From Hymenobacter mellowenesis (GTDB taxonomy: Bacteria > Bacteroidota > Bacteroidia > Cytophagales > Hymenobacteraceae), in NCBI RefSeq assembly GCF_030581005.1, contig NZ_JAUQSX010000008.1, positions 186,001-250,000 on the forward strand: a stretch of 64,000 nt of DNA, read 5' to 3'. Position 1 is the stretch's first letter. Each line of letters opens with the position of its first letter. The notes below the pieces were generated by a model. The model did not search any database. It was not told the origin of the DNA and saw only the letters and a program-made list of their open reading frames with translations. Of this stretch, positions 43,272 to 62,327 are shown piece by piece. The translations under genes were made by a program, and so were the position numbers.

Positions 43272-43319
43272 TTTTGGCCCCTTTCGCACTTCCTTTCTAT
43301 TACCCAAACACCCCACGCC

Positions 43320-43661: not shown

Positions 43662-43663
43662 GG

Positions 43664-43763: not shown

Positions 43764-43766
43764 AAA

Positions 43767-44786: not shown

Positions 44787-44813
44787 GAGCGAGTGCGGAA
44801 GCCCCAAAAATAC

Positions 44814-44921: not shown

Positions 44922-44938
44922 AAACGGTTGGTTTACCG

Positions 44939-46561
44939 TTACTTCTTCGTGGCCGGGAAATCGATGGCACTGGTGTAGGTGCTGGCCTTGCCAAACGACT
45001 GGTTGATTTCGTCGATGGCGGCGCGGCTGCTCAGGCGCTTGGGCTTGGTGTTGAGGAAGGTACCGTCTTCGCCCACCAGCATGTATGTGGGCACTTCCTG
45101 CAGGGCATATTCTTTGGCCAACGTGGAGCGGAGGCCGCCGCCGGGCACGCGGGCCTGTACGCCGGGCAGCTTTTTCACCGTCACGAGCGACTTCCAGGCC
45201 TGCTCGTTTTCATCGAGGGCGATGTTGATGAAGGCGATGTTTTTGCCCTCAAACTTGCGCATCATCTCCTGGGCGTAGGCCAGGTCGCGCAGGCAGAGGC
45301 CGTTGGTGGTTTTCCAGAAGTTAAGGTACACCAGCTTGCCGGCGAAGTCGTGCAGGTGCACCGTGTCGCCGGTGGCGGTGGGCAGCTTGAAGTCGGGTGC
45401 GGGCGCGCCAATGGCGAAGTCCTTGTGCTGGTCGAAATCGTTCTGCAGAATGGGATAGTACTGATTTTTGGGGTCGTAGTTCCGGAAATCAGCCAGCATG
45501 GCGGCCGACTGCTTCACGTGGCCGAAGCGGAATGACTCCTGCAGGATGCGGCCCAGGATAATGGCGCGCGTGGGGCCGGTCAGTTTTTTGCTCGCCAGGG
45601 CGTAGGAGGCCGGATAGAAGTCTGGGTCGGTGCGCTGGTGGTGGTCCTGGGCCACGGCGAAGTGCACGTAGTTGAGCAGAAACTCATGGTACAGCTCGCT
45701 CTGGGCGGCGTTGGGGTCGTTCAGCAGGCCGGGCTCGCGCAGGAAATTGTAGTAGTCGGGGGCCATTTTCAGGCGGCCTTCAGTGTTTACTACTTGCTCG
45801 CGCAGGTCCTGGAAGGTCAGCTTATCGTTGGCGTAGGCGTACACCACTTCGGCGTGGGCGTAGTTGTAGAAGTCCTGCGTGAATGACTGCTTGGCGGCGT
45901 GGTCTTCCAGAAATTCGTACTCGTGCTTGCGGCGGTACTCCAGGAACGACAGAAACGGCGCCTCGTAGAGCTGAATGTTGTCGGGCAGTACCTGGAAGCC
46001 GTCGTTTTCCACAAACTGGGCGTCGGCTTCCACCAAGTAGTTGTTGGCGTTGGCGCCTTGCTGGCGGTGGCGCTGCTCGTCGGTCAGGTTGTTACCGTTG
46101 CGGAGCTTGGTGGCCAGGCCGGTGGGCACGTCGTTGGCCTTGAAGCGCAGCGTGCCCGACATGTCGTTGCCCTTGAAGCGCACGTCGATGTCGGTGCCGG
46201 GGTCGAGGTAGAGCGGGGCCACGTCGTCGCCGTACACGAAATCGGCCTTGGTGGGGCCGCTCACGGGCACGCTCAGCCGGAACTCGCCTTTGTCGCCGAT
46301 TTTGGCACGGAACAGCTTCTCCTTAGGCTCCAGCGGGTTTTCGCGTAGCGAGATGGCCACCGAGTCGGTGGTGGGGCCGCTGATGCGGCCGGTGAGCGTG
46401 GCCGTGCCGCCGGTGGTCGCCGCGTCGGCGGCCGGGGCTTTGCGGGCAGCAGCGCCCACTACAGTGGTAGTCATGCGCCCTTGCCCATGGCCCAGCAGCG
46501 GCCCCAGCAACAGGGCCGCGCCCAGCAAGCGGCGCGCATACATAGTGAGAATGGACGTCAT
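44939..46561 (-). CDS. TlpA-like thioredoxin-fold protein lacking the CxxC motif
   Basis: 540 residues; ATG 46561 (or 46543) with a signal peptide (YARRLLGAALLLGPLLGHGQG). N-terminal beta domain (TLTGRISGPTTDSVAISLRE) is DUF4369-like, then a helical middle. The C-terminal about 150 residues are a TlpA/AhpC-TSA-type thioredoxin domain (APDFKLPTATGDTVHLHDFA, KLVYLNFWKTTNGLCLRDLA, LQEVPTYMLVGEDGTFL). The usual WCxxC is replaced by WKTTNGLC, so only one Cys remains near the active site. It may be a redox-dead or single-Cys thioredoxin-like protein. Confidence 0.8.
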   Translation of the reverse strand: MTSILTMYARRLLGAALLLGPLLGHGQGRMTTTVVGAAARKAPAADAATTGGTATLTGRISGPTTDSVAISLRENPLEPKEKLFRAKIGDKGEFRLSVPVSGPTKADFVYGDDVAPLYLDPGTDIDVRFKGNDMSGTLRFKANDVPTGLATKLRNGNNLTDEQRHRQQGANANNYLVEADAQFVENDGFQVLPDNIQLYEAPFLSFLEYRRKHEYEFLEDHAAKQSFTQDFYNYAHAEVVYAYANDKLTFQDLREQVVNTEGRLKMAPDYYNFLREPGLLNDPNAAQSELYHEFLLNYVHFAVAQDHHQRTDPDFYPASYALASKKLTGPTRAIILGRILQESFRFGHVKQSAAMLADFRNYDPKNQYYPILQNDFDQHKDFAIGAPAPDFKLPTATGDTVHLHDFAGKLVYLNFWKTTNGLCLRDLAYAQEMMRKFEGKNIAFINIALDENEQAWKSLVTVKKLPGVQARVPGGGLRSTLAKEYALQEVPTYMLVGEDGTFLNTKPKRLSSRAAIDEINQSFGKASTYTSAIDFPATKK

Positions 46562-46973
46562 ATTACGTAATAACCTACCGCCGACGACCGCCGGCAATTG
46601 CTAAAATCGACTAAACCAGCAGGAGCTTTCGGGCTGCCTTACCCGGTAATTCGCGGTAAAAGCCTATCAGCACTCCGAAGATACGGCTTTTTGATTTATA
46701 AAATCCAAATCTTAACGCAGATTTATTACGCCCCCAGGCGGGACGGTATTCGACGGAGCGGGTTGGGAACTCGGTGGGCGGGTTGATTATCAGGTTGGTT
46801 TTTGGGCGGGAGTGTTGACGGAGCCGCAAAGAACCGTTCTACCGTGGCGCCTCACCCCCAGCCCCTCTCCCAAAGGAGAGGGGAGCCGGACGATTCCTAT
46901 CAGGAGCATTTCCGGTGCCCCCTCTCCTTTGGGAAAGGGGGTAAGGGGGTGAGGCGCCACGGCAGAATAACGC
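46562..46973. other. 412-bp intergenic region
   Basis: 46600-46770 is relatively AT-rich and should hold the promoter of the TlpA-like gene; no TAnnTTTG with a clear partner was found. 46842-46962 is a family B palindrome. No credible open frame is seen in either strand. Confidence 0.6.
46842..46962. repeat. Palindromic intergenic element, family B (GCGCCTCACCCCCAG)
   Basis: Arms 46842-46883 and 46918-46962 are inverted copies with one gap and a few mismatches (CTCTCCCAAAGGAGAGG and complement), loop 34 nt. It lies just 3' of radA. Confidence 0.92.
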
Positions 46974-48371
46974 CTACCCAAACAGCCCGTTCAGCACCTC
47001 ATCGAGCCGGCTCACGGCTTGCACCTTGAGGCCGAAGCGGGCCAGGTCGAGGCCCTTGCCGTTGAACTGCGACACGTACATCTCGCGGAAGCCCAGCTTC
47101 TCGGCTTCTGCCAGGCGCTGGTCGAGGCGCGAGACGGCGCGGATTTCGCCGCTCAGGCCCACCTCGGCGGCCAGGCACACGTGGCCGGGAATGGGCACGT
47201 CATTCAGGGAGGACACCACGGCGGCGCACACGGCCATGTCGAGGGCGGGGTCGTCGAGGCGCAGGCCGCCGGCGATGTTCAGGAACACGTCGTGCTGGCC
47301 CAGGCGCAGGCCGGCGCGCTTTTCGAGCACGGCCAGCAGCATTTGCAGGCGCTTGGCGTCGAAGCCGGTGCTGCTGCGCTGCGGCGTGCCGTAGGACGTA
47401 GGCGAGACGAGGGCCTGCACTTCGACCAGCAGGGGGCGGTTGCCTTCGAGGGTGGCGCCGATGGCCATGCCGCTCAGGCTTTCGCCGCGTTGCGAGAGCA
47501 GAATTTCGCTCGGGTTGCTCACCTGGCGCAGGCCGTCGCCCTGCATCTCGTAGATGCCCAGCTCGGAGGTGCTGCCGAAACGGTTTTTGGTGGTGCGCAG
47601 GATGCGGTAGCTCAGGTGTCGGTCGCCCTCAAACTGCAGCACCGTGTCGACCATGTGCTCGAGGATTTTGGGGCCGGCAATGCTGCCGTCCTTCGTGATG
47701 TGGCCGATGAGCAGGACGGGCGTACTGGTTTCCTTGGCAAATTTCAGGAACTCGGCGGTGCACTCGCGCACCTGGCTCACGCTGCCGGCGCCGCTTTCCA
47801 CCAGCGTGGAGTGCATGGTCTGGATGGAGTCGATGACGAGGATGTTGGGCTGCACCTGGTCAATCTGGCGGAAGATGTTCTGGGTGTTCGTTTCGGTGAG
47901 GATGTAGCAGCCTGACTGCTGGCCCTCGGCCATGCGCTCGGCGCGCATCTTGATTTGGGCTTCGCTTTCCTCGCCGCTCACATACAGCACCTTCATGTTG
48001 CGCAGGCTGAGGGCGATTTGCAGCATGAGCGTGCTCTTGCCGATGCCCGGCTCGCCGCCGATGAGCACCATGGAGCCCGGCACCAACCCGCCGCCGAGCA
48101 CGCGGTTGAGCTCGCCGTCGGGGGTGACGATGCGGGGCTCGTCTTCCACTAGAATGTTGTTGAGCTGGACCGGCTTGGCGGCTTTGGCCAGGTTGCCGCC
48201 GGGCACGGTGCTGGCGGGCTTCCACTGGCCGGTGGTGGTGGCCACGGTTTCTTTCTGGACGACTTCTTCGACGTAGGTGTTCCACTCGCCGCACACGGGG
48301 CAGCGGCCTATCCACTTCGCGGATTGGGCGCCGCAGGACTGGCAGAAAAAGACGGTTCTGGCTTTGGCCAT
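46974..48371 (-). CDS. radA: DNA repair protein RadA
   Basis: 465 residues. N-terminal zinc finger FFCQSCGAQSAKWIGRCPVC, Walker A GGEPGIGKSTLML, the RadA-specific KNRFG motif (TTKNRFGSTSELG), and a C-terminal Lon-protease-like domain (VFLNIAGGLRLDDPALDMAV). RadA is a RecA-like helicase that drives branch migration during recombination. It starts at ATG 48371 and its 3' side abuts a family B palindrome. Confidence 0.97.
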   Translation of the reverse strand: MAKARTVFFCQSCGAQSAKWIGRCPVCGEWNTYVEEVVQKETVATTTGQWKPASTVPGGNLAKAAKPVQLNNILVEDEPRIVTPDGELNRVLGGGLVPGSMVLIGGEPGIGKSTLMLQIALSLRNMKVLYVSGEESEAQIKMRAERMAEGQQSGCYILTETNTQNIFRQIDQVQPNILVIDSIQTMHSTLVESGAGSVSQVRECTAEFLKFAKETSTPVLLIGHITKDGSIAGPKILEHMVDTVLQFEGDRHLSYRILRTTKNRFGSTSELGIYEMQGDGLRQVSNPSEILLSQRGESLSGMAIGATLEGNRPLLVEVQALVSPTSYGTPQRSSTGFDAKRLQMLLAVLEKRAGLRLGQHDVFLNIAGGLRLDDPALDMAVCAAVVSSLNDVPIPGHVCLAAEVGLSGEIRAVSRLDQRLAEAEKLGFREMYVSQFNGKGLDLARFGLKVQAVSRLDEVLNGLFG

Positions 48372-48861
48372 GCTGGTTGTTTAGGAAGGATTGGGGGAGG
48401 GTTTTATAAGGCGTGCAGGAGCAAAAAAGTTGCCTCGGAAACGGGGGCGGCAAGGTACGGCAGCGCTAGCGGCGCGGGCGGACGCCTCACCCCCCGGCCC
48501 CCTCTCCGAAAAGGAGAGGGGGTGCGTTCAACGACTTCAAACCGCGCAACCGTGCATAGCTGTGCAGAACCGGTGCCCCCTCTCCTCTTCGGAGAGGGGG
48601 CCGGGGGGTGAGGCGCCCGCCTCGCGCCGCCCGAACGCCCCCAAAGACCAAAACCCGCCCCCGCCGAGGCGGGAACGGGTTTCGGAGGTGCCGCAACCGC
48701 ATCCCGCCAAGACGGGATGCCCTTCCCCATGTACCAAAAGCCCATCCCGCCGAGGCGGGATGCCCTTCCTTATATACCGGAAGCCTGCCCCGCCAAGGCG
48801 GGACGCGGTTCCCAATCTACCGGAAGCCTACCCCGCCGAGGCGGAGGGCACTTCCGGTAGT
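48372..48861. other. 490-bp intergenic region built from repeats
   Basis: Two repeat systems fill most of it: a family B palindrome (48484-48614) and a tandem array of small palindromes (from 48655). 48372-48480 holds the radA promoter region, where GGAGGGTTTTATAAGG is the most AT-rich part. No gene is supported. Confidence 0.7.
48484..48614. repeat. Palindromic intergenic element, family B (GCCTCACCCCCCGG)
   Basis: Arms 48484-48525 and 48573-48614 are inverted copies (GCCTCACCCCCCGGCCCCCT and complement) with a few mismatches, loop 47 nt. Confidence 0.93.
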
Positions 48862-48893
48862 TTAGGCAGCGGGGCCCGCCTCGGCGGGGGCGG
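48655..48893. repeat. Tandem array of small palindromes, about 43-bp period
   Basis: The palindrome CCCGCC(G/A)AGGCGGG recurs at centres near 48667, 48711, 48753, 48797, 48840 and 48885, spaced about 43 nt. Spacers share GATGCCCTTCC and TACCGGAAGCC. The last copy lies inside the 3' end of the minus-strand gene and encodes its PAEAGPAA tail. Confidence 0.85.
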
Positions 48894-49593
48894 CAGTGAC
48901 TTTGGCAGCGGCCTTGGCGGCTTTCTTAGCGCTCTTGCGGGCGCTTTCGGCCGCCGAGAAATCGAAGAAGCTGTACACTTTCTCGGGTTCCTCGAAGGTG
49001 AGCTCCAGCTGGGCCTTGAGGCGGCGCTGGGCGCGGGCAATGGCCTGGCGGTCGGCGGTAAGGTCGAGGCGGGCGTCGGTGATGGTGGCGTCCTGGGTGT
49101 CGCGGGTTTCGTCGGCGGCGGCCAGGGTTTGGTAGAGGGCGTCGGCCTCGGCGCCGAGGGTGGGGTACTTGAGGGCGGCCTGCTGGGCGTGGTAGAGCTG
49201 GAGCAGGGTTTTGGACTGGGTGAGCAGGGCGGGCTGGTCGAGGGCTTTGAGCTTGCTCTTGCCAAACTTCTTGAAGTCGGCAAACACAGGCAGCTTGCGC
49301 AGCTTGGGCGTCACGTAGTCGAGCATGGTGTCGCCCACGAATTCCAGCCACTTGGTGCGGGCTTCGTGGTAGGCGCCGGTGCCGCCGGCCGTGGACTGGC
49401 CACCGTCGGTCAGGTTCTCATCGAAGCCCTCGATGGCCGTTTCCAGCGCGGCCAGCAGCGGCGTGAAGGCGGCACCGAGCTTGGCCTCGCGGCCGGCCCG
49501 CAAGCTGTATTCGGCCTGGGCCTTGTAGGCGGGCCGCGCCATGCGCAGCGTCAGGAACAGGTTTTCGAAGTAGGTAGAATTGGGGCCTTGCAT
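48862..49593 (-). CDS. Helical protein of unknown function
   Basis: 243 residues, no signal peptide, very Ala- and Lys-rich with long predicted helices (ARPAYKAQAEYSLRAGREAK, LYQTLAAADETRDTQDAT, ARAQRRLKAQLELTFEEPEK). The tail ESARKSAKKAAKAAAKVTAA is a basic Ala/Lys run like those of nucleoid-binding proteins, ending in residues encoded by the palindrome array. The family is not recognised. Confidence 0.62.
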   Translation of the reverse strand: MQGPNSTYFENLFLTLRMARPAYKAQAEYSLRAGREAKLGAAFTPLLAALETAIEGFDENLTDGGQSTAGGTGAYHEARTKWLEFVGDTMLDYVTPKLRKLPVFADFKKFGKSKLKALDQPALLTQSKTLLQLYHAQQAALKYPTLGAEADALYQTLAAADETRDTQDATITDARLDLTADRQAIARAQRRLKAQLELTFEEPEKVYSFFDFSAAESARKSAKKAAKAAAKVTAAPAEAGPAA

Positions 49594-49724
49594 AAATGGG
49601 AAGAAGGGAGTGAAAAGGCACCGCCGAAACTTCGGCGGCTAGCTGACCATCAGCCGATAAGTAAGAGTACCACTTATTGGGGAGATTGCCAATTTCTAAT
49701 TTCTCGAACCCGGTTGTGAATGGC

Positions 49725-51485
49725 TCATTCCACCACCAGCCGCTGGGCCAGGGTACCGGCTCGCACGAGGTAGAGGCCCGGGGGCAATGCAGCCGGCAGG
49801 GCCAGTTGCAGAGCACCCTGCGCAGATAAGGCGCCTTTCAACACTATCCGGCCCAGCGCGTCCAGCACCTGCACGGCCTGCCCAGGTGGCAGACCTTCCA
49901 CCGTGACGACCGAGCGGGCCGGGTTGGGGTACAGGGCAAAGGGCGCCTGACCCGCCGAGGGCCGGGCCGCCAGCGGACCGCCGGACAGCCGGGCCAGATA
50001 ACCACCGCTCGTTACTGTGAATGTGCCAAATTGCGCGCTACCACCATAAGAACTTGTTCCGGCAAAGTGTAAGCGGTTGCCTGCGTCCAAGGCCAAAGTC
50101 GTTACGTCGTCTTGGTCCGGCCCACCAGCACGCAAGGCCCATTGCCATCCACCAACAGTATCAAGCGCCGCAACCACAATATCATATTTGCCGGCACTGA
50201 CCAAGGCTGTGGTGCCAAAACGACTGCCACCGGCACTGGGCGTGCCGGGGTCTAGCTGCGAACCCCGGCCGAAGATGCCGGCTGCGTATACCCGGCTACC
50301 ACGCACAGCAATGCGATTTAATTCTTCGCCATCCACGCTACCGCCGCGCACAGCCCATTGCCAAGCACCGGTGGCCGCGTTAAGCCGGGCCACGAAGGCG
50401 TCATCGTTTTGAATGGAGCCCAACGCGGGACCTTGGTAGGTGCCGCTGGTGTTGGTGAGGGTGGTGGCGCCAAATCTGGCCGTGGCCCCGCTGAAGTTGC
50501 CGCACGCATACAAGTGCCCGCGGTCGTCGGTCGCCAAGCCCCTGCAGACGGTGCCACCAAAGCCGCCTGGAAATGTACCGGTACCAGAGGTGCCGGGCAG
50601 GGCCTGCGCCCACTGCCAGACGCCGAGGCGGTTGATTTTGGCGATGTAGCTGCCGCGCTGCTGGGTGAGGGGAAACAAGGAAGAGAAGGCGATGCCCGAG
50701 CCAAAATCGCCGGTGAGGTAAGCGTTGCCTTGCGCGTCGGCGGCCAGGTCGGCCACGGTGCCGTGGCCGGTGCTCACGGCCCAGCCCCAGGCGCCGGTGG
50801 CCGCGTCGAGGCGGGCGACGAAGAGGTCGGTGCCGCGGCCCACGTTTTGCAGCACGGTGGCGCCCACGGGCAGAGAGGGCCCGTCGAAGGTGCCGGCCAC
50901 GAGCACGCCGCCGGCCCCGTCGGGGGCCACGGCCCGGCCAGAATCCCGGCCGGTGTTGGCGTTGCCAAAGCCGGCCTGCTGCACCCACAGCCAGGCCCCG
51001 GTGGTGCCGTCGAGCTTGGCCATAAGCACGTCGGAGTAGCCGGCCGAGGTGAGGGTGGTATTCCCGAAGGTGGCCGGCACACTGCCCGAACTCTGCGCGA
51101 ACGAGCCCACGGCGTACACCTGCCCCTGCGCGTCGAGGGCCACGTCGGCGAATTGGTCGCCCTCGGCACTGCCGCCGCCGCTGGCCCAGAGCCAGGCCCC
51201 GGCGGCGTCGCGCTTGGCAACGAAGGCGTCGTAGGAACCCGTTCCCGTCAGGGTGGTGCCGCCGAATCGCACCGAGCCGCTGAATAGGCCCACCACGTAA
51301 GTGTTACCCAGCGCGTCGGCCCGCACCCGGTTGACACTGGCGTAGCTGCCGGGCGCCAGGCCCACGCCGCACTCGCCCGCTTGGTCGAACGTGGGCGCTT
51401 GGCCGCGGGCCGAGTTAATCAGGCCGAGCAGCAGGCCCATGCCCAGCATGAGCACCGACGGAGAGAACCGGAAGCATCTTTCCAT
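49725..51485 (-). CDS. T9SS-sorted surface protein with repeated beta-propeller-like units
   Basis: 586 residues from ATG 51485 (signal peptide ...VLMLGMGLLLGLINSARG). The body is made of about seven units of roughly 55-65 residues with the pattern DAFVAxxDAATGAWxWA ... DAQGNxYVxGxFxGSxxFG (for example DALGNTYVVGLFSGSVRFGG, DAFVAKRDAAGAWLWASGGG), the SBBP-like repeat of Bacteroidota. The C-terminal about 80 residues are a type A sorting domain (FALYPNPARSVVTVEGLPPG, LPPGLYLVRAGTLAQRLVVE). It should be exported by type IX secretion to the surface. No catalytic residues seen. Confidence 0.85.
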   Translation of the reverse strand: MERCFRFSPSVLMLGMGLLLGLINSARGQAPTFDQAGECGVGLAPGSYASVNRVRADALGNTYVVGLFSGSVRFGGTTLTGTGSYDAFVAKRDAAGAWLWASGGGSAEGDQFADVALDAQGQVYAVGSFAQSSGSVPATFGNTTLTSAGYSDVLMAKLDGTTGAWLWVQQAGFGNANTGRDSGRAVAPDGAGGVLVAGTFDGPSLPVGATVLQNVGRGTDLFVARLDAATGAWGWAVSTGHGTVADLAADAQGNAYLTGDFGSGIAFSSLFPLTQQRGSYIAKINRLGVWQWAQALPGTSGTGTFPGGFGGTVCRGLATDDRGHLYACGNFSGATARFGATTLTNTSGTYQGPALGSIQNDDAFVARLNAATGAWQWAVRGGSVDGEELNRIAVRGSRVYAAGIFGRGSQLDPGTPSAGGSRFGTTALVSAGKYDIVVAALDTVGGWQWALRAGGPDQDDVTTLALDAGNRLHFAGTSSYGGSAQFGTFTVTSGGYLARLSGGPLAARPSAGQAPFALYPNPARSVVTVEGLPPGQAVQVLDALGRIVLKGALSAQGALQLALPAALPPGLYLVRAGTLAQRLVVE

Positions 51486-51538
51486 AGCAAAGGGGGCAAC
51501 CAGCGGTTTAAGCAGAAGTTCCTTGATGGCCAACTTGC

Positions 51539-51568
51539 TAAATGTAGCAGGAATGCATCTATTTGCAA
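51539..51568 (-). promoter_or_regulatory. Probable promoter of the SBBP-like surface-protein gene
   Basis: On the minus strand TTG (51568-51566), a 19-nt spacer and TACATTTA (51546-51539) fit the Bacteroidota -33/-7 pattern, about 54 nt upstream of the ATG at 51485. Confidence 0.5.
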
Positions 51569-51635
51569 GCGCCCCTTCTCTGGATGCCCCATTGTGCTAC
51601 CCTCAACATTTCGCCCCGCGCGGGGTTGCTACGCC

Positions 51636-53042
51636 ATGCCCGAAACCGCTCCCCTCACCCCCGCCGACCTCGCCCCCGTCACCGCCTTCGCCGGCCTGCC
51701 CGCCGAAACGCTGGCCTGGCTGCTCGCCCACGGCGAGGGCCGGGCCTATGCCCCCGGCGAAGTCCTGTTCGAGCCCGGCGCCCCGGCCGAGCTGATGACG
51801 GCCATCATCCGGGGCGGCATCCAGTTCTACGCTGTGAAGGGCGCCCAGCGCGACCCCATTTTCCGGGCCGAGGCCGGGCAGGTGACGGGCGTGCTGCCCT
51901 ACTCGCGGCTGCGCGTCATTGCGGGCCAGGGCGTGGCCGTGGGCGACACCCTGCTCTACACCCTGCACCGCGACCAGTTCCCCGCCCTGGAGCAGGCCAG
52001 CCCCGAGCTCACCCAGCGCCTGGTGGCCGTGATGAACGACCGCAGCCGCGACCAGGTGCGCGCCCAGGAGCGCGACGACAAGCTGCGCGCCCTGGGCAAG
52101 CTCTCGGCCGGCCTGGCCCACGAGCTCAACAACCCCGCCGCCGCCATCGCGCGCGCCGCCCAGGCCCTGGCCCAGCGCGCCGCGGCCAAACCGGCGTTGT
52201 TTGTGGAGCTGGTGGGCCACTGCCCCACGCCCGAGGCCATGCGCGCCCTCACGGCGCTGGCCGTGCCCGGCGCGGCCCCCGCGCCCACCTCGGCCCTGGA
52301 GCGGGCCAACCGCGAAGACGAGTTGGCCGACTGGCTCACCGAGCAGGGGGCGCCCGACGGCTACCACCTGGCCCCCGCCCTGCTCGAAGCCGGCGTGACC
52401 GTAGAAACCCTGGCGCCCGTGGCGGCGCTGCTGCCGCCCGCCGCCCGCCCGGCCGCCTTCGCCTGGCTCGAAGGCCAGCTCACCACCATGCAGCTGGTGC
52501 GCGACGTGCAGGAGGCCGGCGGGCGCATCAGCAAGCTGGTGGCCGACGTGAAAACCTACTCGCACATGGACCGCGCCGGCGGCGTCGAGCGGCTCGACGT
52601 CACGGCCGGCCTCGAAAGCACCCTCAACATGCTGGGCTTCCAACTGCGCCAGAAAAACGTGCGCCTCACCCGCGACTACGCGGCGGAGCTGCCCCCGATT
52701 CGCGGCCAGGTCAGCAGCCTCAACCAGGTGTGGACCAACCTGCTCGACAACGCCATTGACGCCCTGCCCGCGCAGGGCGGCGAAATCACGCTCCGCACCC
52801 GGCGCGAGGGTGATTTCGTGCGCGTGTTTCTGATTGACAACGGCAGCGGCATCCCGGCCGAGGTTTTGCCGCACATCTTTGAGCCCTTCTACACCACCAA
52901 GCAAGCCGGCGACGGCTCCGGCCTGGGGCTCGATATTGCGCAGCGCATCATTCATCAGCACGATGGCCGGCTAGAGGTTGATTCCCGGCCGGGCCATACC
53001 GAGTTTTGCGCCTGGCTGCCGGTAGCGGGGGCGCAGGCGTAG
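51636..53042 (+). CDS. Histidine kinase with N-terminal cyclic-nucleotide-binding-like domain
   Basis: 468 residues, no membrane segment, so cytosolic. Residues of about 10-135 resemble a cNMP-binding/CRP-like beta-roll (LTPADLAPVTAFAGLPAETL, GRAYAPGEVLFEPGAPAELM). HisKA motif LGKLSAGLAHELNNPAAAIA with phospho-acceptor His162. A long helical insert (about 185-310) separates it from the catalytic domain: N box NQVWTNLLDNAIDALPAQ, G1 DNGSGIPAEVLP, F box HIFEPFYTTKQAGDGSGLGL. Start ATG 51636 is preceded by a divergent promoter region. The receiver-oxidoreductase gene lies 157 nt downstream on the same strand and is the obvious phosphorylation target. Confidence 0.87.
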   Translation: MPETAPLTPADLAPVTAFAGLPAETLAWLLAHGEGRAYAPGEVLFEPGAPAELMTAIIRGGIQFYAVKGAQRDPIFRAEAGQVTGVLPYSRLRVIAGQGVAVGDTLLYTLHRDQFPALEQASPELTQRLVAVMNDRSRDQVRAQERDDKLRALGKLSAGLAHELNNPAAAIARAAQALAQRAAAKPALFVELVGHCPTPEAMRALTALAVPGAAPAPTSALERANREDELADWLTEQGAPDGYHLAPALLEAGVTVETLAPVAALLPPAARPAAFAWLEGQLTTMQLVRDVQEAGGRISKLVADVKTYSHMDRAGGVERLDVTAGLESTLNMLGFQLRQKNVRLTRDYAAELPPIRGQVSSLNQVWTNLLDNAIDALPAQGGEITLRTRREGDFVRVFLIDNGSGIPAEVLPHIFEPFYTTKQAGDGSGLGLDIAQRIIHQHDGRLEVDSRPGHTEFCAWLPVAGAQA

Positions 53043-53054
53043 GCGGCGCAGGCC

Positions 53055-53171
53055 GGGGCGCCTCACCCCCGGCCCCTCTCCCAAGGGAGAGGGGAGCCTG
53101 ATGTTATTTGTCAGAAATAAGTCCGGTTCCCCCTCTCCCTTGGGAGAGGGGGTCAGGGGGTGAGGCGCCCC
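53055..53171. repeat. Palindromic intergenic element, family B (GCGCCTCACCCCCGG)
   Basis: Arms 53055-53094 and 53129-53171 are inverted (GGGGCGCCTCACCCCCGG and complement, few mismatches) with a 34-nt loop. It fills most of the gap between the kinase gene and the receiver-oxidoreductase gene. Confidence 0.94.
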
Positions 53172-53199
53172 GTCAGAACATTCTAAAACATCATCCCCC

Positions 53200-54858
53200 A
53201 TGGCCACCCCCAAACCCATTATTCTCGCCGTCGATGACGACCCGCAGGTGCTGGCCGCCATCGCGCGCGACCTGCGCCAGGAGTTCGCCCAGAACTACCG
53301 CATCCTGCGCGTGGGCTCCGGCCCCGAAGCCCTCGAAACCATCCAGGAGCTGCACGCCAAGGAAGAGCCGCTGGCCCTCATTCTGGCCGACCAGCGCATG
53401 CCCGAACTCGAAGGCGTGGAGCTGCTCACGGCCTCGCGTGAGTTTTTCCCCGACGCCAAGCGCGTGCTGCTCACGGCCTACGCCGACACCGAAGCGGCCG
53501 TGCGCGCCATCAACTCGGCCCGGCTCGACCACTACCTGATGAAGCCCTGGGACCCGCCCGAAACCCTGCTCTACCCCACCCTGCACGACCTGCTGGCCGC
53601 CTGGCAGGCCAGCAACAAGCCGCGCTACGATGGCATCCGGCTCATCGGGTTTCAATGGTCGCCGCTCTCGCACGAGCTCAAGGACTTCCTCAGCGGCTAC
53701 ATGGTGGGCTACCAGTGGCTCGACTACGAAACCAGTCCCGAAGCCCAGGCCCTGGTCAAAGCCAAAGGCTTCGACTCGACGGATTTGCCGCTCATCATCT
53801 GCGCCGACGGCAAGGCCGTGGCCAACCCCAGCAAGGCCGACCTGGCCAACCACCTCAACATCGCCAACCAGCCGCTGCAGGACATGTACGACGTGGTGGT
53901 GGTGGGCGCCGGCCCCAGCGGCCTGGCCGCGGCCGTGTACGGCGCCAGCGAGGGCCTGCGCACGCTCATCATCGAGCGGCAGACGCCCGGCGGGCAGGCC
54001 GGCACCAGCTCGCGCATCGAAAACTACCTGGGCTTCCCCACCGGCCTGAGCGGCGCCGAGCTGGCCCACCGCGCCTGGACCCAGGCCGTGCGCCTCGGTG
54101 CCGAGTTCCTGGCCCCGCAGGAAGTCACCAACCTCTGCATTCAGGACGGCTACAAGGTCCTCACCCTCGGCGACGGCCGCGAGGTGAAAACCAAGGCCGT
54201 GGTGCTCACCACCGGCGTCAGCTACCGCACCCTCGACGTACCGGGCATGGACCGCCTCAGCGGCGCGGGCGTGTACTACGGCGCCGCCCGCACCGAGGCC
54301 CGCAGCTGCGACGAGCAGGACGTGTACATCGTGGGCGGCGGCAACTCGGCCGGGCAGGCGGCCATGTACCTGGCCACCTACGCCCGCAACGTTTACATCG
54401 TCATTCGCGGGGCCAACCTAGCCGCCAGCATGTCGGCGTATTTGATTGAGCAGATTCGCACCACGCCCAACATCGTGCTCATGCCCTTCTCCCAAATCAA
54501 GGAAGTGTGCGGCCAGGACCACCTCGAAGCCGTGATGGTGGACGTGAACGGCACCGTGGAAAAGCGCGAGGCCCGGGCCCTGTTCGTCTTCATCGGCGCC
54601 AAGCCCAGCACCGAATGGGTGTGCGACCAGGTGGTGTGCGACGGCAAAGGCTTCGTCCTCACCGGCCGCGACCTGGTGACGGACCCGCGCTATCCCCAAA
54701 TCTGGCACAAGGAGCGGGAGCCCTACCTGCTCGAAACCTGCGTGCCCGGCATCTTCTCGGCCGGCGACAGCCGCGCCGGCGCCATGGCCCGCGTGGCCTC
54801 GGCCGTGGGCGAGGGCAGCATGGCCATCAAGTTCGTGCACCAGTACCTGGATGAGTAA
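53200..54858 (+). CDS. Response-regulator receiver / glutaredoxin-like / thioredoxin-reductase-like fusion
   Basis: 552 residues, cytosolic. Residues 1-125 are a receiver domain with acidic pocket Asp12-Asp14, phospho-acceptor Asp64 (ILADQRMPEL), Thr92 (LTAYADTE) and Lys115 (LMKPWDPP). About 145-222 resemble a glutaredoxin-like fold (RLIGFQWSPLSHELKDFL, LPLIICADGKAVANPSKADL) but lack the CxxC pair. About 229-552 are a thioredoxin-reductase-like flavoprotein: FAD motif YDVVVVGAGPSGLAAAVYGA, NAD(P) motif VYIVGGGNSAGQAAMYLA and C-terminal GIFSAGDSRAGAMARVASAV. The usual CxxC of thioredoxin reductase is replaced by a lone Cys370 (TEARSCDEQD). Genome annotations have similar fusions under the name response regulator/thioredoxin-disulfide reductase; function is untested as far as I know. 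Confidence 0.88.
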   Translation: MATPKPIILAVDDDPQVLAAIARDLRQEFAQNYRILRVGSGPEALETIQELHAKEEPLALILADQRMPELEGVELLTASREFFPDAKRVLLTAYADTEAAVRAINSARLDHYLMKPWDPPETLLYPTLHDLLAAWQASNKPRYDGIRLIGFQWSPLSHELKDFLSGYMVGYQWLDYETSPEAQALVKAKGFDSTDLPLIICADGKAVANPSKADLANHLNIANQPLQDMYDVVVVGAGPSGLAAAVYGASEGLRTLIIERQTPGGQAGTSSRIENYLGFPTGLSGAELAHRAWTQAVRLGAEFLAPQEVTNLCIQDGYKVLTLGDGREVKTKAVVLTTGVSYRTLDVPGMDRLSGAGVYYGAARTEARSCDEQDVYIVGGGNSAGQAAMYLATYARNVYIVIRGANLAASMSAYLIEQIRTTPNIVLMPFSQIKEVCGQDHLEAVMVDVNGTVEKREARALFVFIGAKPSTEWVCDQVVCDGKGFVLTGRDLVTDPRYPQIWHKEREPYLLETCVPGIFSAGDSRAGAMARVASAVGEGSMAIKFVHQYLDE

Positions 54859-54860
54859 AA

Positions 54861-54948
54861 TTAGGGCAGGAGGGTAAGAGGGTAAGGGGGTAGGAGTTTG
54901 AATAGCACACAACTCCTCCCCCCCTACCCTCTTACCCTCCTGCCCTAA
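54861..54948. repeat. Palindromic intergenic element, family C (TTAGGGCAGGAGGG)
   Basis: Arms 54861-54898 and 54911-54948 are inverted copies (38 nt, few mismatches), loop 12 nt. It fills the gap between the fusion gene and the converging rfbA. The other copy is at 25618-25706. Confidence 0.93.
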
Positions 54949-54953
54949 AAACC

Positions 54954-55832
54954 CTACTCCTCCAGCATCAGCTGCTCGGGCAGGTTCATCAGGTAGTCGC
55001 CGTAGCCGCTTTTGCGGAGCGGGGCGGCTATGGCCCGGAGCTGGTCGGCATCGATAAAGCCCTGGCGGTAGGCGGCTTCCTCGATGGAGCCCACTTTCAG
55101 GCCCTGGCGCTGCTCGATGACTTTTACGAACTCGCCGGCCTGCATCAGGCTCTCGAAGGTGCCGGTATCGAGCCAGGCGGTGCCGCGGCCCAGGATGCCC
55201 ACTTTGAGCGTGCCGCGGCGCAGGTACTCACGGTTCACGTCGGTGATTTCGTATTCGCCGCGCGGGCTCATTTCCAGGTTTTTGGCGATTTCCACCACGT
55301 CGTTGTCGTAGAAATACAGGCCCGGCACGGCGTAGTTGCTCTTGGGCTGGGCCGGCTTTTCCTCGATGCTGAGGGCCTTCTTGTTCTCGTCGAATTCCAC
55401 CACGCCGTAGCGCTCAGGGTCGTGCACGTGGTAGGCAAACACCACCCCGCCCTGCGGGTCGTTGTTGGCCTTGAGCAATTCCGAGAGGCCGGCGCCATAG
55501 AAAATGTTGTCGCCGAGCACCAGCGCCACCTTGTCCTGGCCGATGAAATCAGCGCCCAGCACGAAGGCTTGCGCGAGGCCGTTGGGCACCTCCTGCACCA
55601 CGTACTGGAAATCGCAGCCCAGGCTTTTGCCATCACCGAGCAGCTTTTTAAACTGCGCCTGGTCGTGGGGCGTGGTGATAATCAATACTTCCCGGATGCC
55701 GGCCGACAGCAGAATCGACAGCGGGTAGTAAATCATCGGCTTGTCGTACACGGGCATGAGTTGCTTCGAGACGGCCAGCGTGAGCGGGTGCAGGCGGGTG
55801 CCGGAGCCGCCGGCGAGGATAATACCTTTCAT
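54954..55832 (-). CDS. rfbA: Glucose-1-phosphate thymidylyltransferase RfbA
   Basis: 292 residues. Nucleotidyltransferase signature [20 protein letters not shown] at the N-terminus, then [38 protein letters not shown] and a C-terminal [27 protein letters not shown]. It makes dTDP-glucose, the first step of dTDP-sugar synthesis. rfbB is two genes upstream; rfbC and rfbD (needed for dTDP-rhamnose) are not in the window. Confidence 0.96.
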
Positions 55833-55841
55833 AGTACTTCT

Positions 55842-55944
55842 GTCATCCTGAGCGTAGCGAAGGACCTTATCACGTCTGCGCTACAGTGAGTAAGTAAACC
55901 TGACGAAGGCAGCCGTGATAAGATGCTTCCTTCGTCAGCATGAC
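55842..55944. repeat. Hybrid palindromic element, family A
   Basis: The left arm (GTCATCCTGAGCGTAGCGAA, 55842-55874, ending in CCTTATCACG) belongs to the CCTGA/GGACC subtype. The right arm (55914-55944, CGTGATAAGATGCTTCCTTC, then CAGCATGAC) combines the GTGATAAG of that subtype with GATGCTTC of others, so the pairing is only partial. Confidence 0.8.
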
Positions 55945-55950
55945 AACGAT

Positions 55951-56958
55951 TTAGTTGCGTTCCTGAATAAACGCTTGGTTGGCCTTAAACCACGCCAGCG
56001 TCTGCCGCAAGCCCTCGCGGATGCGCACCTGCGGCTGGTAGCCCAGCAGGCGGTTGGCCTTCGAGATGTCGGCCAACGAGTCGCGGATGTCGCCGGCTCG
56101 GTCGGGGCCAAACTTCGGCGCCAAATCGGAGCCCGCTTCCTCGCGCAGGATGTCGTACATCTGCACCAGCGAGGTGCGGTCGCCCACGGCGATGTTGTAG
56201 ACCTGGCCCAAGGCCTCGGGGTTCTCCACCAGCGCGGCGCGGATGTTGGCCTCCACGCAGTTTTCCACGAAGGTGAAGTCGCGGGTCTGGCCGCCGTCGC
56301 CGTTCAGCGTAGGCGCCTCGTTGCGCAGAATGGCGTCGATGAACAGCGGAATCACGGCCGCGTAGGCCCCGCCCGGGTCCTGGCGCGGGCCGAAGATGTT
56401 GAAGTAGCGCAAACCCACGATTTCCATGCCGTAGGTGCGGGCAAAGACGTCGGCGTACAGCTCGTTGGCGTACTTGGTCACGGCATAGGGCGAGAGCGGC
56501 TTGCCGATGCGGTCTTCCACCTTGGGCAGGCCGGGGTGGTCGCCGTAGGTCGAGCTGCTGGCCGCGTACACGAAGCGCTTCACGCCCGCGTTTTTGGCGG
56601 CGGTCAGCATCTGCACGAAGCCGCCCACGTTCACGTCATTGGTCAGCACCGGGTCTTTGATGGAGCGCGGCACCGAGCCGAGGGCGGCCTCGTGCAGCAC
56701 CACGTCCACGCCCGCGCAGGCATTGGCGCAGGTGGCCGCGTCGCGGATGTCGCCGTCCAGGATTTCGAGGCGCGAATCGCCGGCGAACAGCGCCAGGTTT
56801 TTACGGAAGCCGTTGGAGTAGTTGTCCAGCGTCCGCACCTTCTTTACGCCGTATTTCAGCAGATACTCCACGATGTTGGAGCCAATGAAGCCCGCGCCGC
56901 CGGTAACGAGAAAGGTCAGATTATCGAGCGGCCGCTCGTGGAAAGGGTTTTCGTACAC
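55951..56958 (-). CDS. UDP-N-acetylglucosamine 4-epimerase-like SDR protein (WbpP type)
   Basis: 335 residues, GTG start at 56958 (an in-frame TAA lies 12 nt further up). Extended SDR: cofactor motif LVTGGAGFIGSNIVEYLLKY, catalytic YAVTKYANELYA (YxxxK) with Ser in YAASSSTYGDH, and the VPRSIKDPVLTNDVN segment typical of WbpP/group 3 epimerases. The enzyme interconverts UDP-GlcNAc and UDP-GalNAc. With the WbpO-like dehydrogenase it would lead to UDP-GalNAcA. Confidence 0.85.
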   Translation of the reverse strand: MYENPFHERPLDNLTFLVTGGAGFIGSNIVEYLLKYGVKKVRTLDNYSNGFRKNLALFAGDSRLEILDGDIRDAATCANACAGVDVVLHEAALGSVPRSIKDPVLTNDVNVGGFVQMLTAAKNAGVKRFVYAASSSTYGDHPGLPKVEDRIGKPLSPYAVTKYANELYADVFARTYGMEIVGLRYFNIFGPRQDPGGAYAAVIPLFIDAILRNEAPTLNGDGGQTRDFTFVENCVEANIRAALVENPEALGQVYNIAVGDRTSLVQMYDILREEAGSDLAPKFGPDRAGDIRDSLADISKANRLLGYQPQVRIREGLRQTLAWFKANQAFIQERN

Positions 56959-56976
56959 TTCGTTGAGTTAAAAATT

Positions 56977-57090
56977 AATCAGCACGTCATGCTGAGCGTA
57001 GCCGAAGCATCTCTACTGCTTTACTATTCAATTATTTTGGCGACGAAGCAGTAGAGATGCTTCGGCTACGCTCAGCATGACGTGCTGATT
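56977..57090. repeat. Palindromic intergenic element, family A, perfect 45-bp arms
   Basis: Arms 56977-57021 and 57046-57090 are perfect inverted copies (CTGAGCGTAGCCGAAGC core), loop 24 nt. The longest perfect palindrome in the window. Between wbpP-like and rfbB genes. Confidence 0.96.
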
Positions 57091-57096
57091 AGCGCC

Positions 57097-58152
57097 TTAG
57101 CGCCCCGCGTACTGCTTCTGGTTGTAGTCCTGATAGGCGCCGCTGGTCACGCTGTTGAGCCATTCTTCGTTTTCGAGGTACCAATCCACGGTCTGGGCTA
57201 GGCCTTGCTCGAAGGTCACGGAAGGCTTCCAGCCCAGCTCATTCATGATTTTCGAGGAGTCGATAGCGTAGCGCATATCGTGGCCGGCGCGGTCGGTCAC
57301 GAACTTGATGAGCTTACGCGAGGTGCCTTGCTCCTGCCCGGTTTTTTCGTCCACCACGTCGCAGAGCAGCTCGATGAGCTTGAGGTTCTGCCACTCGTTC
57401 ACGCCGCCGATGTTGTAGGTATCGCCGTTTTTGCCCTTATGGAACACTGCATCGATGGCCGTGGCGTGGTCTTTCACGAACAGCCAGTCGCGCACGTTCT
57501 CGCCCTTGCCGTACACGGGCACCGGCTGGCCGGTGCGCAGGCGGTGAATGGCCAACGGAATCAGCTTCTCGGGGAAGTGGTTGGGGCCGTAGTTGTTGGA
57601 GCAGTTGCTCAGCTTGATGGGCAGGCCGTAGGTGTGGTGCCAGGCGCGCACAAAGTGGTCCGACGAAGCCTTCGAGGCCGAGTAGGGCGAGCGGGGGTCG
57701 TAGCTAGTTTCTTCGGTGAACATCTCGGGGCCGAAATCCAGCGACCCGTACACTTCGTCGGTGCTCACGTGGTAGAACACGTGGCCCTCGTAGCCCTTGG
57801 GCTGCCACAGGTGGCGCGCCGCATTCAGCAGGTTCACCGTGCCGATAACGTTAGTTTTCACAAACGCCATAGGGTCGGTAATGCTGCGGTCGACGTGCGA
57901 CTCGGCCGCGAGGTGAATCACGGCGTCGGGCTCCTCGTTGGCAAACAGCTGGTCGATGAAGTTCTGGTCGGCAATGTCGCCTTTGATGAATTTGTAGTTC
58001 GACGCGTTTTCCACGTCGCGCAGGTTCTCCAGGTTGCCGGCGTACGTCAGCGCGTCAAGGTTGAGAATCTGGTACTCGGGGTACTTCGTCACGAACAGAC
58101 GAACAACGTGGGACCCAATGAAGCCGGCGCCGCCGGTGATGAGGATTTTCAT
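57097..58152 (-). CDS. rfbB: dTDP-glucose 4,6-dehydratase RfbB
   Basis: 351 residues from ATG 58152 (MKILITGGAGFIGSHVVRLF). Dehydratase marks: HLAAESHVDRSITDPMAFVK, STDEVYGSLDFGPEMF and YSASKASSDHFVRAWHHTYG (YxxxK). It converts dTDP-glucose to dTDP-4-keto-6-deoxyglucose using tightly bound NAD. Upstream in-frame ATGs lie in the repeat and the next gene and were rejected. Confidence 0.96.
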   Translation of the reverse strand: MKILITGGAGFIGSHVVRLFVTKYPEYQILNLDALTYAGNLENLRDVENASNYKFIKGDIADQNFIDQLFANEEPDAVIHLAAESHVDRSITDPMAFVKTNVIGTVNLLNAARHLWQPKGYEGHVFYHVSTDEVYGSLDFGPEMFTEETSYDPRSPYSASKASSDHFVRAWHHTYGLPIKLSNCSNNYGPNHFPEKLIPLAIHRLRTGQPVPVYGKGENVRDWLFVKDHATAIDAVFHKGKNGDTYNIGGVNEWQNLKLIELLCDVVDEKTGQEQGTSRKLIKFVTDRAGHDMRYAIDSSKIMNELGWKPSVTFEQGLAQTVDWYLENEEWLNSVTSGAYQDYNQKQYAGR

Positions 58153-58167
58153 AGGTTTGGGTGATTT

Positions 58168-58199
58168 GTCATGCTGAGCGCAGTCGAAGCATGACGTGC
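58168..58199. repeat. Truncated family A element (arms fused, loop lost)
   Basis: GTCATGCTGAGCGCAGTCGA runs directly into GCATGACGTGC: a left arm and only the last bases of the right arm, with the loop and most of the right arm absent. It looks like a collapsed copy between rfbB and galE. Confidence 0.8.
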
Positions 58200-58210
58200 T
58201 TTTTGATTTT

Positions 58211-59233
58211 TTATTTCGCCAGCGTTTGCTGCCACTTCCACGAGCTGGCGAGCGAGTCGGCCAGGGAGGTTTCGGTTTTGAAGCCCAGCACCTGCTCGGC
58301 TTTGGTCGCGTCGGCATAGATGGCGGGCACGTCGCCGGGGCGGCGCGGGCCGAGTTCCACGTTCAGCTTCTGGCCCGATACTTCCTCGAAAGTGTGCACC
58401 ACTTCGAGCACGGTATTGCCGTGGCCGGTGCCCACGTTGAAGGTTTCCACGGTGTCGCTGGCCTTATGGTCGAGCAGGCGCTGCACAGCCACCACGTGGG
58501 CCTTGGCCAAATCCACAACGTGGATGTAGTCGCGGATGCACGAGCCGTCGGGCGTATCGTAGTCGGTACCGTACACCGTCAGCTTCTCGCGGATACCGGC
58601 GGCCGTTTGGGTGATGAAAGGCACCAGGTTGTTGGGCACGCCCAGCGGCAATTCGCCGATTTTAGCCGACTCGTGCGCGCCAATCGGGTTGAAGTAGCGC
58701 AGCAGAATGGTGCGAATCTGGTTGTCGGGCGCGCCCGATACATCGTGCACGATGTCTTCGCACATCTGCTTGGTGCGGCCATAGGGCGAGGAAGCCGGCT
58801 TGGTGGGCGTGGCCTCGGTCACGGGCAGCGCGTCGGGCACGCCGTACACGGTGCAGGAGGAAGAAAACACCAGGTTTTCCACGCCAGCCTCCTTCATCAC
58901 CTCCAGCAGCGTGAGCAGCGAGCCCACGTTGTTCTGAAAGTAAGCCAGCGGCTTCGCCACCGATTCGCCCACCGCCTTGTAGGCCGCAAAGTGAATGACG
59001 CCCTTGATGTCTTTCTCCGTCTCAAACACCTGGCGCAGGGCCGCCGCGTCGCCGCAGTCGATGCGGTGCAACGGCACGGCCGTGCCCAAAATGGCCTCAA
59101 TGCCCGCCACGGCCGACTCCTGCGAGTTGCTGAAATTGTCGATGATGACGGGCTGAAAGCCGGCCTGCGCCAGCTCCACCACCGCGTGGGAACCGATATA
59201 GCCGGCGCCGCCGGTCACGAGAATTTTGGTCAT
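58211..59233 (-). CDS. galE: UDP-glucose 4-epimerase GalE
   Basis: 340 residues from ATG 59233. Marks: LVTGGAGYIGSHAVVELAQA, FAAYKAVGESVAKPLAYFQN, SSSCTVYGVPDALPVTEATP, YGRTKQMCEDI (YxxxK) and the C-terminal YADATKAEQVLGFKTE. It supplies UDP-galactose for polysaccharide synthesis. Confidence 0.95.
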   Translation of the reverse strand: MTKILVTGGAGYIGSHAVVELAQAGFQPVIIDNFSNSQESAVAGIEAILGTAVPLHRIDCGDAAALRQVFETEKDIKGVIHFAAYKAVGESVAKPLAYFQNNVGSLLTLLEVMKEAGVENLVFSSSCTVYGVPDALPVTEATPTKPASSPYGRTKQMCEDIVHDVSGAPDNQIRTILLRYFNPIGAHESAKIGELPLGVPNNLVPFITQTAAGIREKLTVYGTDYDTPDGSCIRDYIHVVDLAKAHVVAVQRLLDHKASDTVETFNVGTGHGNTVLEVVHTFEEVSGQKLNVELGPRRPGDVPAIYADATKAEQVLGFKTETSLADSLASSWKWQQTLAK

Positions 59234-59239
59234 TGTTTT

Positions 59240-59325
59240 AGTTGTCAGTTGCTCGTTGTCAGTTGTTAATTCGGCCACCAGCGCCGGCAATAAGCCTGAC
59301 AACTGACAACGAGCAACTGACAACT
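59240..59325. repeat. Palindromic intergenic element, family D-like (GTTGTCAGTTGC)
   Basis: Perfect 27-bp arms at 59240-59266 and 59299-59325, loop 32 nt. Each arm also contains the direct repeat TTGTCAGTTG twice. It is between galE and the WbpO-like gene. Confidence 0.93.
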
Positions 59326-59328
59326 AGT

Positions 59329-60624
<1,296 letters not shown>

Positions 60625-60628
60625 GTAG

Positions 60629-61255: not shown

Positions 61256-61280
61256 GCGGGCAGGCAAGGGATTGAAGCCG

Positions 61281-61288
61281 CAAAGGTA
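61281..61288 (-). promoter_or_regulatory. TAnnTTTG -7 box of the nucleotide-sugar operon
   Basis: TACCTTTG on the minus strand, 25 nt upstream of the ATG at 61255. It supports that start and would drive the wbpD-like gene and the dehydrogenase gene directly behind it. Confidence 0.5.
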
Positions 61289-61311
61289 AGACGGGGCGGG
61301 GGTTGGGTTCG

Positions 61312-61319
61312 TACTTTTG
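61312..61319 (+). promoter_or_regulatory. TAnnTTTG -7 box of the Uma2 gene
   Basis: TACTTTTG on the plus strand, 24 nt before ATG 61344. With 61281-61288 it makes a compact divergent promoter pair. Confidence 0.5.
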
Positions 61320-61343
61320 GGTAATTCCCTCACTGAGCACGTT

Positions 61344-62314: not shown

Positions 62315-62327
62315 AGCGACGAAGATA

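Follow-up and report, generated by a model that had tools for sequence, protein, structure and literature searches.

The 64,000-nucleotide stretch of Hymenobacter mellowenesis DNA analysed here (the window; contig NZ_JAUQSX010000008.1, positions 186,001 to 250,000) contains two intact open reading frames (ORFs) on the + strand, a kinase gene followed by a fusion gene across 51636-54858, as proposed in the first-pass annotation. The first ORF (P0001, 51636-53042, 468 residues) encodes a soluble sensor histidine kinase. The second (P0002, 53200-54858, 552 residues) encodes a fusion of a receiver, a glutaredoxin-like segment and a thioredoxin reductase (TrxR)-like core. Both were assigned from the ORF, Pfam domains, alignment and a structure model. 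The nearest named relative of the fusion among the matches listed was a Hymenobacter protein (82% identity). At least 592 relatives of the fusion were confirmed in a scan of 84,980 species genomes, and 80 named loci were kept from these, including Bacteroidota, Cyanobacteriota, Actinomycetota, Acidobacteriota, Chloroflexota and Pseudomonadota; the reductase family is therefore widespread. On the sequence evidence, the pair is best read as the putative signalling core of a widespread module consisting of the kinase, the flavoprotein and, in many genomes, a ZnF-UBP zinc-finger protein.

The kinase was identified as a two-component kinase by its HATPase_c catalytic domain (residues 359-463, 52710-53024; Pfam E 2.6e-25, with a fold match). 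HisKA was matched with E 6.1e-5 and 23.4 bits, below the 26.9-bit cut-off. His162, the predicted phosphorylated histidine (52119-52121, within AHELNNPAAA), was invariant in an alignment of 41 kinases (40 of the 80 named loci plus the window), and the AlphaFold2 model built from this alignment had a mean predicted local distance difference test (pLDDT) score of 91.0. An N-terminal beta-roll domain of the cyclic-nucleotide (cNMP) type occupies 51636-52010 and was located by Pfam, profile, alignment and model. Its Pfam cNMP_binding match (E 3.3e-5, 24.2 bits) fell below the 27.5-bit cut-off, and the cyclic-nucleotide-binding fold was identified with a profile made from 20 kinase N-terminal segments, which matched the cyclic-nucleotide domains of CRP and PKA/PKG in the PDB (CRP/FNR 3e97, E 5e-18). 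The canonical cyclic-nucleotide phosphate-binding cassette is Arg-Ser/Thr-Ala. This cassette was kept in none of the 15 kinase rows examined, many of which, the window's included, read G-x-[LM]P[YF]SR at this point. A normal cyclic-nucleotide pocket was rejected because the cassette motif is missing, and the label 'cNMP' as applied to this predicted domain denotes a fold, not a demonstrated ligand.

The receiver domain of the fusion (residues 6-123, 53215-53568) was matched by Response_reg with E 3.6e-15. In an alignment of 42 fusions (41 of the 80 named loci plus the window) Asp12, Asp13, Asp64, Thr92 and Lys115 were invariant and Asp14 nearly so; the acidic pocket, the predicted phosphoacceptor (Asp64, 53389-53391) and the Thr and Lys residues of a receiver are all present. 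A Pfam domain search of the fusion revealed no DNA-binding domain. The receiver is followed by a degenerate glutaredoxin-like segment (residues 144-222, 53629-53865), placed by alignment and model. Residues 146-218 had a secondary structure compatible with a thioredoxin-like fold in the AlphaFold2 model. Glutaredoxins have Cys-x-x-Cys at the active site. Residues 154-157 of the fusion are Ser-Pro-Leu-Ser, which is neither CxxC nor CxxS.

The remainder of the chain (residues 228-552, 53881-54855) is a TrxR-like core for FAD and pyridine nucleotide (Pyr_redox_2, E 7.6e-32). It superposed on the FR conformation of L. lactis TrxR with Z 35.7 and a root-mean-square deviation (rmsd) of 2.0 Å over 299 residues, and carries the FAD motif GxGxxG (GAGPSG) and the nucleotide motif GxGxxA (GGGNSA). 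Both motifs, together with an IENYLGFP loop, were among the invariant columns of the 42-row alignment, which holds fusions of several phyla. The AlphaFold2 model of the fusion had a mean pLDDT of 89.8 (42 aligned sequences). Residues 273-280, the IENYLGFP loop, were the sole stretch with pLDDT below 50, and all eight are invariant in the 42 fusions; the model suggests that this loop may require flavin for order. The Foldseek and VIA matches listed for the two models were to the catalytic core of the kinase and to the TrxR core.

No CxxC is present anywhere in the fusion chain. The site of the lost active-site pair reads YYGAARTE (54274-54297), and the ordinary TrxR of this genome has CAVC at the aligned position. 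In a comparison of 36 rows, consisting of 35 reductase-family sequences and this genome's own TrxR, CxxC was absent from the aligned site in all 35 family members, two of which carry a CxxC elsewhere. The HRRxxxR stretch of thioredoxin reductase binds the NADPH phosphate. Its counterpart in the fusion is IRGANLA, in which only Arg403 and Leu407 are invariant and the basic stretch is not kept. The fusion has seven cysteines (201, 313, 370, 437, 475, 480 and 514), none in an invariant or near-invariant column of the 21- and 42-row alignments, and position 370 is Phe, Thr or Tyr in some relatives. A classical TrxR or glutaredoxin activity residing in the fusion was rejected because both dithiols are lost, and the fusion can with good confidence be taken to lack classical disulfide reductase activity. 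It very probably binds flavin.

Much of the first-pass annotation was borne out by these results: the soluble kinase with a cNMP-binding-like domain and His162, the full set of receiver acceptor residues (Asp12-14, Asp64, Thr92 and Lys115), the degenerate glutaredoxin-like segment joined to an FAD/NAD(P) reductase-like core and the loss of both CxxC pairs. A concealed CxxC elsewhere in the chain, which it had raised against its own proposal, was searched for and rejected, none being present. It was mistaken in reporting Cys370 as the only cysteine and in proposing a special role for it; Cys370 was rejected as a catalytic residue because it is unconserved.

Pairing of the two genes was examined in a first sample of 247 genomes from the window's phylum, with a cut-off of E ≤ 1e-60 for both the reductase and the kinase family. 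The reductase family was held by 36 genomes, 32 of them with a full-length fusion that includes the receiver; the receiver-less matches in G103, G122, G138 and G182 were excluded from the 32. The kinase was present in 31/32 genomes with a full-length fusion versus 0/215 others, and in 30 of the 31 it lay within 4 kb of the fusion. Counted by genus, it was present in 18/19 with the fusion versus 0/102 without. Over the 32 fusion regions the family kinase was within 300 bp in 28, at 3.9 kb in one (G231) and on another contig in one (G133); in G242 and G183 a Kef-ZnF gene intervenes and the distance is about 2 kb. Counting a PAS-type variant in G086 that falls below the E ≤ 1e-60 cut, a family kinase lay within 4 kb in 31/32 regions, in the same orientation as the fusion in all regions but one (G014). 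Among the 80 named loci, drawn from several phyla, a family kinase was present in the stretch examined in 68; in 57 of these it shares the strand of the fusion and lies no more than 400 bp from it, on either side. Kinase and fusion almost certainly form a dedicated two-component system, as far as gene order and motifs can tell. The first-pass annotation had proposed just such a dedicated kinase/receiver pair with a CxxC-less flavin reductase as output, and had named absence of conserved pairing in relatives as the observation that would count against it; the pairing found was strong.

In four loci (L064, L067, L073 and L084) two or three family kinases stood beside a single fusion, which suggests multiple inputs to one output. 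A 'Low temperature requirement protein A' gene was found directly downstream of the kinase on a Nostoc sp. C052 plasmid (L186, 11343-12572); on a Deinococcus aetherius plasmid (L192, 9148-10323) it is also downstream of the kinase, separated from it by two genes.

When the neighbours in the 80 loci were clustered, a protein of about 90 residues adjoining the fusion was identified as ZnF-UBP (PF02148, representatives checked), a component absent from the first-pass account. Genome-wide, ZnF-UBP was present in 24/36 reductase-family genomes of the first sample versus 2/211 others. In a second sample of 149 Actinomycetota genomes, centred on the genome of Streptomyces L109, it was present in 21/31 genomes with the reductase family versus 10/118 without; PF02148 was also contained in 2 of 14 control genomes. 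Fisher tests gave 1e-38 for the kinase and 3e-22 and 5e-11 for ZnF-UBP, and 1e-20 and 1e-10 by genus (first phylum only); these values overstate independence because the sampled genomes are related. Annotated Streptomyces and Tsukamurella records had the order fusion, kinase, 'UBP-type zinc finger' with 4-bp overlaps, and no zinc finger was listed in the other annotated receiver-type regions compared. A long frame in L109 that appeared to fuse ZnF-UBP to a Streptomyces kinase was rejected, the kinase stretch being out of frame and the zinc finger having its own start; in the annotated Streptomyces record the two are separate overlapping genes. In Hymenobacter wooponensis (L036) a ZnF-UBP frame lies immediately upstream of the kinase. 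The genome of the window has one ZnF-UBP (G000:C22:86925-87119), on a separate contig from the pair, so the partner is present at the level of the genome. The bacterial domains, one of which has a solved structure (2ida), read Cys-Cys-Asp where eukaryotic ones read Cys-Gly-Arg. The extra Cys, which adjoins a predicted zinc-binding Cys, was found in 71 and the Asp in 66 of 72 distinct bacterial domains. ZnF-UBP is likely, with little reservation, to be a functional partner of the pair.

Many of the ZnF-UBP places were linked to cation/proton antiporters, a link absent from the first-pass account; the labels used here are 'Kef-type' for PF00999 proteins with TrkA_N and 'NhaP-like' for those without. 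PF00999 exchangers are few, with only 2-4 per genome in all 12 genomes checked. A Kef-type antiporter in the same direction was present in 18 of the 32 fusion regions and a ZnF-UBP in 17, with the two fused in three; the Kef gene of G175 was counted from L249 and lies outside the short flank of L144. The order was Kef-ZnF-kinase-fusion in 13 of the 18, Kef-kinase-fusion with no ZnF match in two (G127 and G038), fusion-KefZnF-kinase in two (G242 and G183) and KefZnF-kinase-fusion in one (G219). Kef and ZnF are a single protein in the last three, with the architecture PF00999-TrkA_N-PF02148 in G183. Across the first sample, 19/27 ZnF-UBP places were fused to or adjoined Kef, two of them in reductase-less genomes (G042 and G085), and a Kef-ZnF fusion also lies beside the kinase/fusion pair of the acidobacterial L081. 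In Actinomycetota 7/40 ZnF places were joined to an NhaP-like exchanger, three as fusions and four as divergent neighbours, and no TrkA_N match was found in the three fused proteins. A further 9/40 were inside or next to a gene of the system (reductase or kinase), and 24/40 had neither kind of link in the stretch scanned. For G247b, which is among the nine, the scanned stretch includes only the kinase and the fusion, by coordinates, is just beyond. Neighbours can be missed in these counts, as three of the 39 Actinomycetota stretches (G247) extend only about 1.5 kb per side and some reach contig ends. The joining of two antiporter types to one kind of zinc finger argues for function, beyond inheritance alone. 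Antiporter control is slightly favoured where the genes are linked and is doubtful in this Hymenobacter-like genome.

Three Actinomycetota loci (L214, L216 and L217, from G341, G264 and G395) encode Na+/H+-exchanger-family proteins with a C-terminal ZnF-UBP; G264 and G395 are outside the reductase-positive set at E ≤ 1e-60. In L226 (3098-5106), from the Micromonospora saelicesensis genome of L101 and outside the sample, an exchanger gene is directly upstream of ZnF-UBP. A DsbA-like gene was present in 10/32 fusion regions, all with Kef, with the motif CPYS or CPFS where shown; it stands between Kef and ZnF-UBP in L243 (11216-11740, CPYS), L054 (5743-6264, CPFS) and L182 (11819-12199, CPFS).

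In some relatives, absent from the first-pass account, the receiver is missing and a cNMP-type domain is fused directly to the glutaredoxin-like/TrxR core; in others the frame contains no such domain. The cNMP-type proteins of G182 and of a Rhodococcus plasmid adjoin ZnF-UBP, and no ZnF was seen beside those of G103, L190 and L195. In a tree of the core, from which six shorter rows (L115 and L117-L121) were excluded, the cNMP label needs three changes, two of them forced by well-supported branches. The core therefore appears to be connected to a CRP-like domain in one of two ways: in cis or, as in the window, through a kinase and a receiver. On the Rhodococcus sp. PD04 plasmid (L189, 1-7239) the receiver-less relative ends a gene run of dnaK, grpE, a J-domain gene, cbpM, clpB, trxA, ZnF-UBP and cNMP-TrxR, and so sits among protein-disaggregation genes and a thioredoxin that keeps WCAPC. 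Sixteen IMG/VR contigs (L113-L128) encode relatives with the TrxR-like core, none of which matches the receiver part of the query.

Among known proteins the fusion resembles low-Mr thioredoxin reductase (TrxB; TIGR01292) in its TrxR fold of about 300 residues (Z about 35) and in GAGPSG and GGGNSA. It differs in having no CxxC, IRG in place of HRR and added N-terminal receiver and glutaredoxin-like segments, and it scored 212 bits against TIGR01292, below the 343-bit cut-off. Many receiver-type relatives are named 'FAD-dependent oxidoreductase' in RefSeq-derived annotation. Proteins annotated as 'Cyclic nucleotide-binding domain-containing thioredoxin-disulfide reductase' (L189, L190 and L195) have the same glutaredoxin-like and TrxR core lacking the active-site CxxC, with ZnF-UBP beside one of the three (L189); unlike the fusion, they carry the cNMP-type domain directly and have no receiver. 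Bacterial ZF-UBP was reportedly described in a 2011 comparative-genomics abstract by Burroughs, Iyer and Aravind as part of a predicted cyclic-nucleotide-dependent redox signalling system, and the parts found here are compatible with that system. The window's pair is taken to be a member of this predicted system. Set against it, the additions made here would be co-occurrence measured in two phyla, an association with antiporters of two types and the lack of the thiol site across the members compared. No biochemical account of the reductase family was found in the searchable literature, which leaves most subscription journals outside its scope. Titles and opening lines of abstracts on zf-UBP with antiporters or receivers, and on NhaA-DsbA fusions, gave no description of the system, and the parts of PMC6599016 and PMC9025218 that were available held nothing on it.

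Two published systems bear on the domain combination. Receivers joined to thioredoxin reductase were noted in metagenomic archaea (PMC5847659); the domain join is the same as in the fusion, and the census entry, as far as available, states no partner genes or function. In the KefC/KefF system, under the same heading as KefB/KefG, a Kef antiporter that has a nucleotide-binding domain is regulated by a flavin reductase subunit. According to the available sections of that account (PMC10224563), full activation of KefC needs KefF, a flavin quinone reductase that binds FMN and resembles the quinone reductases QR1 and QR2; gating is by glutathione adducts, zinc was present at the interface of the crystallised construct, and no kinase, receiver or ZnF-UBP is mentioned. 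By analogy, KefF would be the nearest working precedent for a regulatory reductase.

We propose that the kinase would autophosphorylate on His162 when its CRP-like domain meets a ligand and that the phosphate would pass to Asp64 of the fusion receiver. Phosphorylation would reposition the flavoprotein, which would take hydride from NAD(P)H without thiol-disulfide exchange through itself. A regulatory reductase role is proposed because the fusion is unable to perform this exchange itself: it would act as KefF does for KefC and signal through the ZnF-UBP as adaptor, the target in complete gene sets being a Kef- or NhaP-type antiporter. This reading as a whole, of a phosphorylation-controlled thiol-less flavoprotein acting as a KefF-like regulatory reductase through ZnF-UBP, was given a probability of about 0.45.

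Several observations weigh against it, above all that one close relative lacks ZnF-UBP and that no antiporter link was seen in this genome, for which the antiporter step is weakest. No ZnF-UBP was detectable in G072, whose fusion is 87% identical. Around the pair (window 43001-63000) there was no ZnF-UBP match and no Kef-type antiporter, in a search whose profiles did not extend to NhaP-like exchangers, and no exchanger was found in 18 kb around this genome's ZnF-UBP on contig C22. Fifteen of the 18 Kef-linked regions belong to one family, f23 (probably Balneolaceae), and are therefore not independent. In the stretches examined at the 80 named loci a Kef-type gene was present in only 2 and ZnF-UBP in only 23, and 12 had no kinase, two of these stretches having less than 2 kb on at least one side. 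ZnF-UBP was missing from 12/36 reductase-family genomes, and 2/26 ZnF genomes (G042 and G085) have a Kef gene beside or fused to the zinc finger and no reductase. The fold of KefF is unrelated, the fusion being of the TrxR fold and not like the FMN quinone reductases (PMC10224563, in the sections available). Structure prediction, which the first-pass annotation had called for, gave confident domains but left their packing unsettled, with a predicted template modelling (pTM) score of 0.70.

The output might instead be a phospho-gated detoxifying flavoenzyme, either an NAD(P)H oxidase or a quinone/electrophile reductase, with ZnF-UBP as no more than a scaffold and the antiporters sharing in the stress response but not directly controlled. 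This suits the conserved flavin and nucleotide motifs and several neighbours, namely a mycothiol-dependent dehydrogenase, the DnaK-GrpE-DnaJ-ClpB-TrxA genes beside a cNMP-type relative and an aldehyde-dehydrogenase-like gene, recognised by eye, that precedes the fusion by a few kb in acidobacterial L080, L086, L088, L094 and L111. It is unlikely, as it does not account for ZnF-UBP being fused repeatedly to antiporters of two types or for the ordered Kef-ZnF-kinase-fusion runs. A reversed flow would make the pair a redox sensor and not a redox output: the NAD(P)H/FAD redox state would be sensed by the flavoprotein, whose receiver would then act back on the kinase. A dithiol-less flavoprotein with no DNA-binding domain found would serve for sensing, but the kinase has a sensor-type domain of its own, the receiver phosphoacceptor site is complete, and the core appears to work without the kinase because cNMP-type or input-less sister proteins keep it beside ZnF-UBP; such a flow is quite improbable.

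The remaining alternatives concern the missing thiols. A cysteine of ZnF-UBP could provide the active site in trans, accepting electrons; the zinc finger, once reduced or oxidised by the flavin, would move the antiporter domain joined to it. The second Cys of Cys-Cys-Asp, kept in nearly all the bacterial domains and replaced in Cys-Gly-Arg of the eukaryotic ones, makes this conceivable, but both Cys could bind zinc and it was judged very improbable. The same low standing was given to a phosphorelay in which the thiol-less flavoprotein would redox-switch the extra Cys, and the zinc finger would gate ion exchange by the Kef- or NhaP-type antiporters to which it is fused or docked. Loss of the CxxC and glutaredoxin cysteines could also mean that the receiver is only a phosphate sink, attached to a reductase part that is a dead remnant; with the FAD and nucleotide motifs and the IENYLGFP loop invariant in fusions of several phyla, this is hardly credible.

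For the regulatory reductase acting through ZnF-UBP, the antiporter link gives the loosely defined 'redox output' a specific form, namely whether phosphorylation of a flavoprotein changes K+ or Na+/H+ exchange. If it does, flavoproteins of two unrelated folds would have been recruited as antiporter regulators, and bacterial ZnF-UBP domains would have a use outside ubiquitin biology. The joining of ZnF-UBP to antiporters suggests a possible route from redox state to ion balance.

The 157-nt spacer between kinase and fusion had a folding energy of -111.8 kcal/mol (z -11.5) and holds a palindrome, CCCCTCTCCC..GGGAGAGGGG, at 53055-53170 (no strand assigned), identified by genome copy count and folding. 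Its 22-bp core has 39 copies genome-wide with at most one mismatch (control 0). The copies often occur as spaced pairs, looser matches lie at 48499 and 48577 in the window, and the palindrome is a dispersed repeat family. Co-transcription of the kinase and fusion is not certain because this repeat and the strongly folding spacer lie between the genes. Divergent from the kinase, 49725-51533 (- strand) encodes a 602-residue repeat-rich protein whose C-terminus, by eye, resembles a sorting signal.

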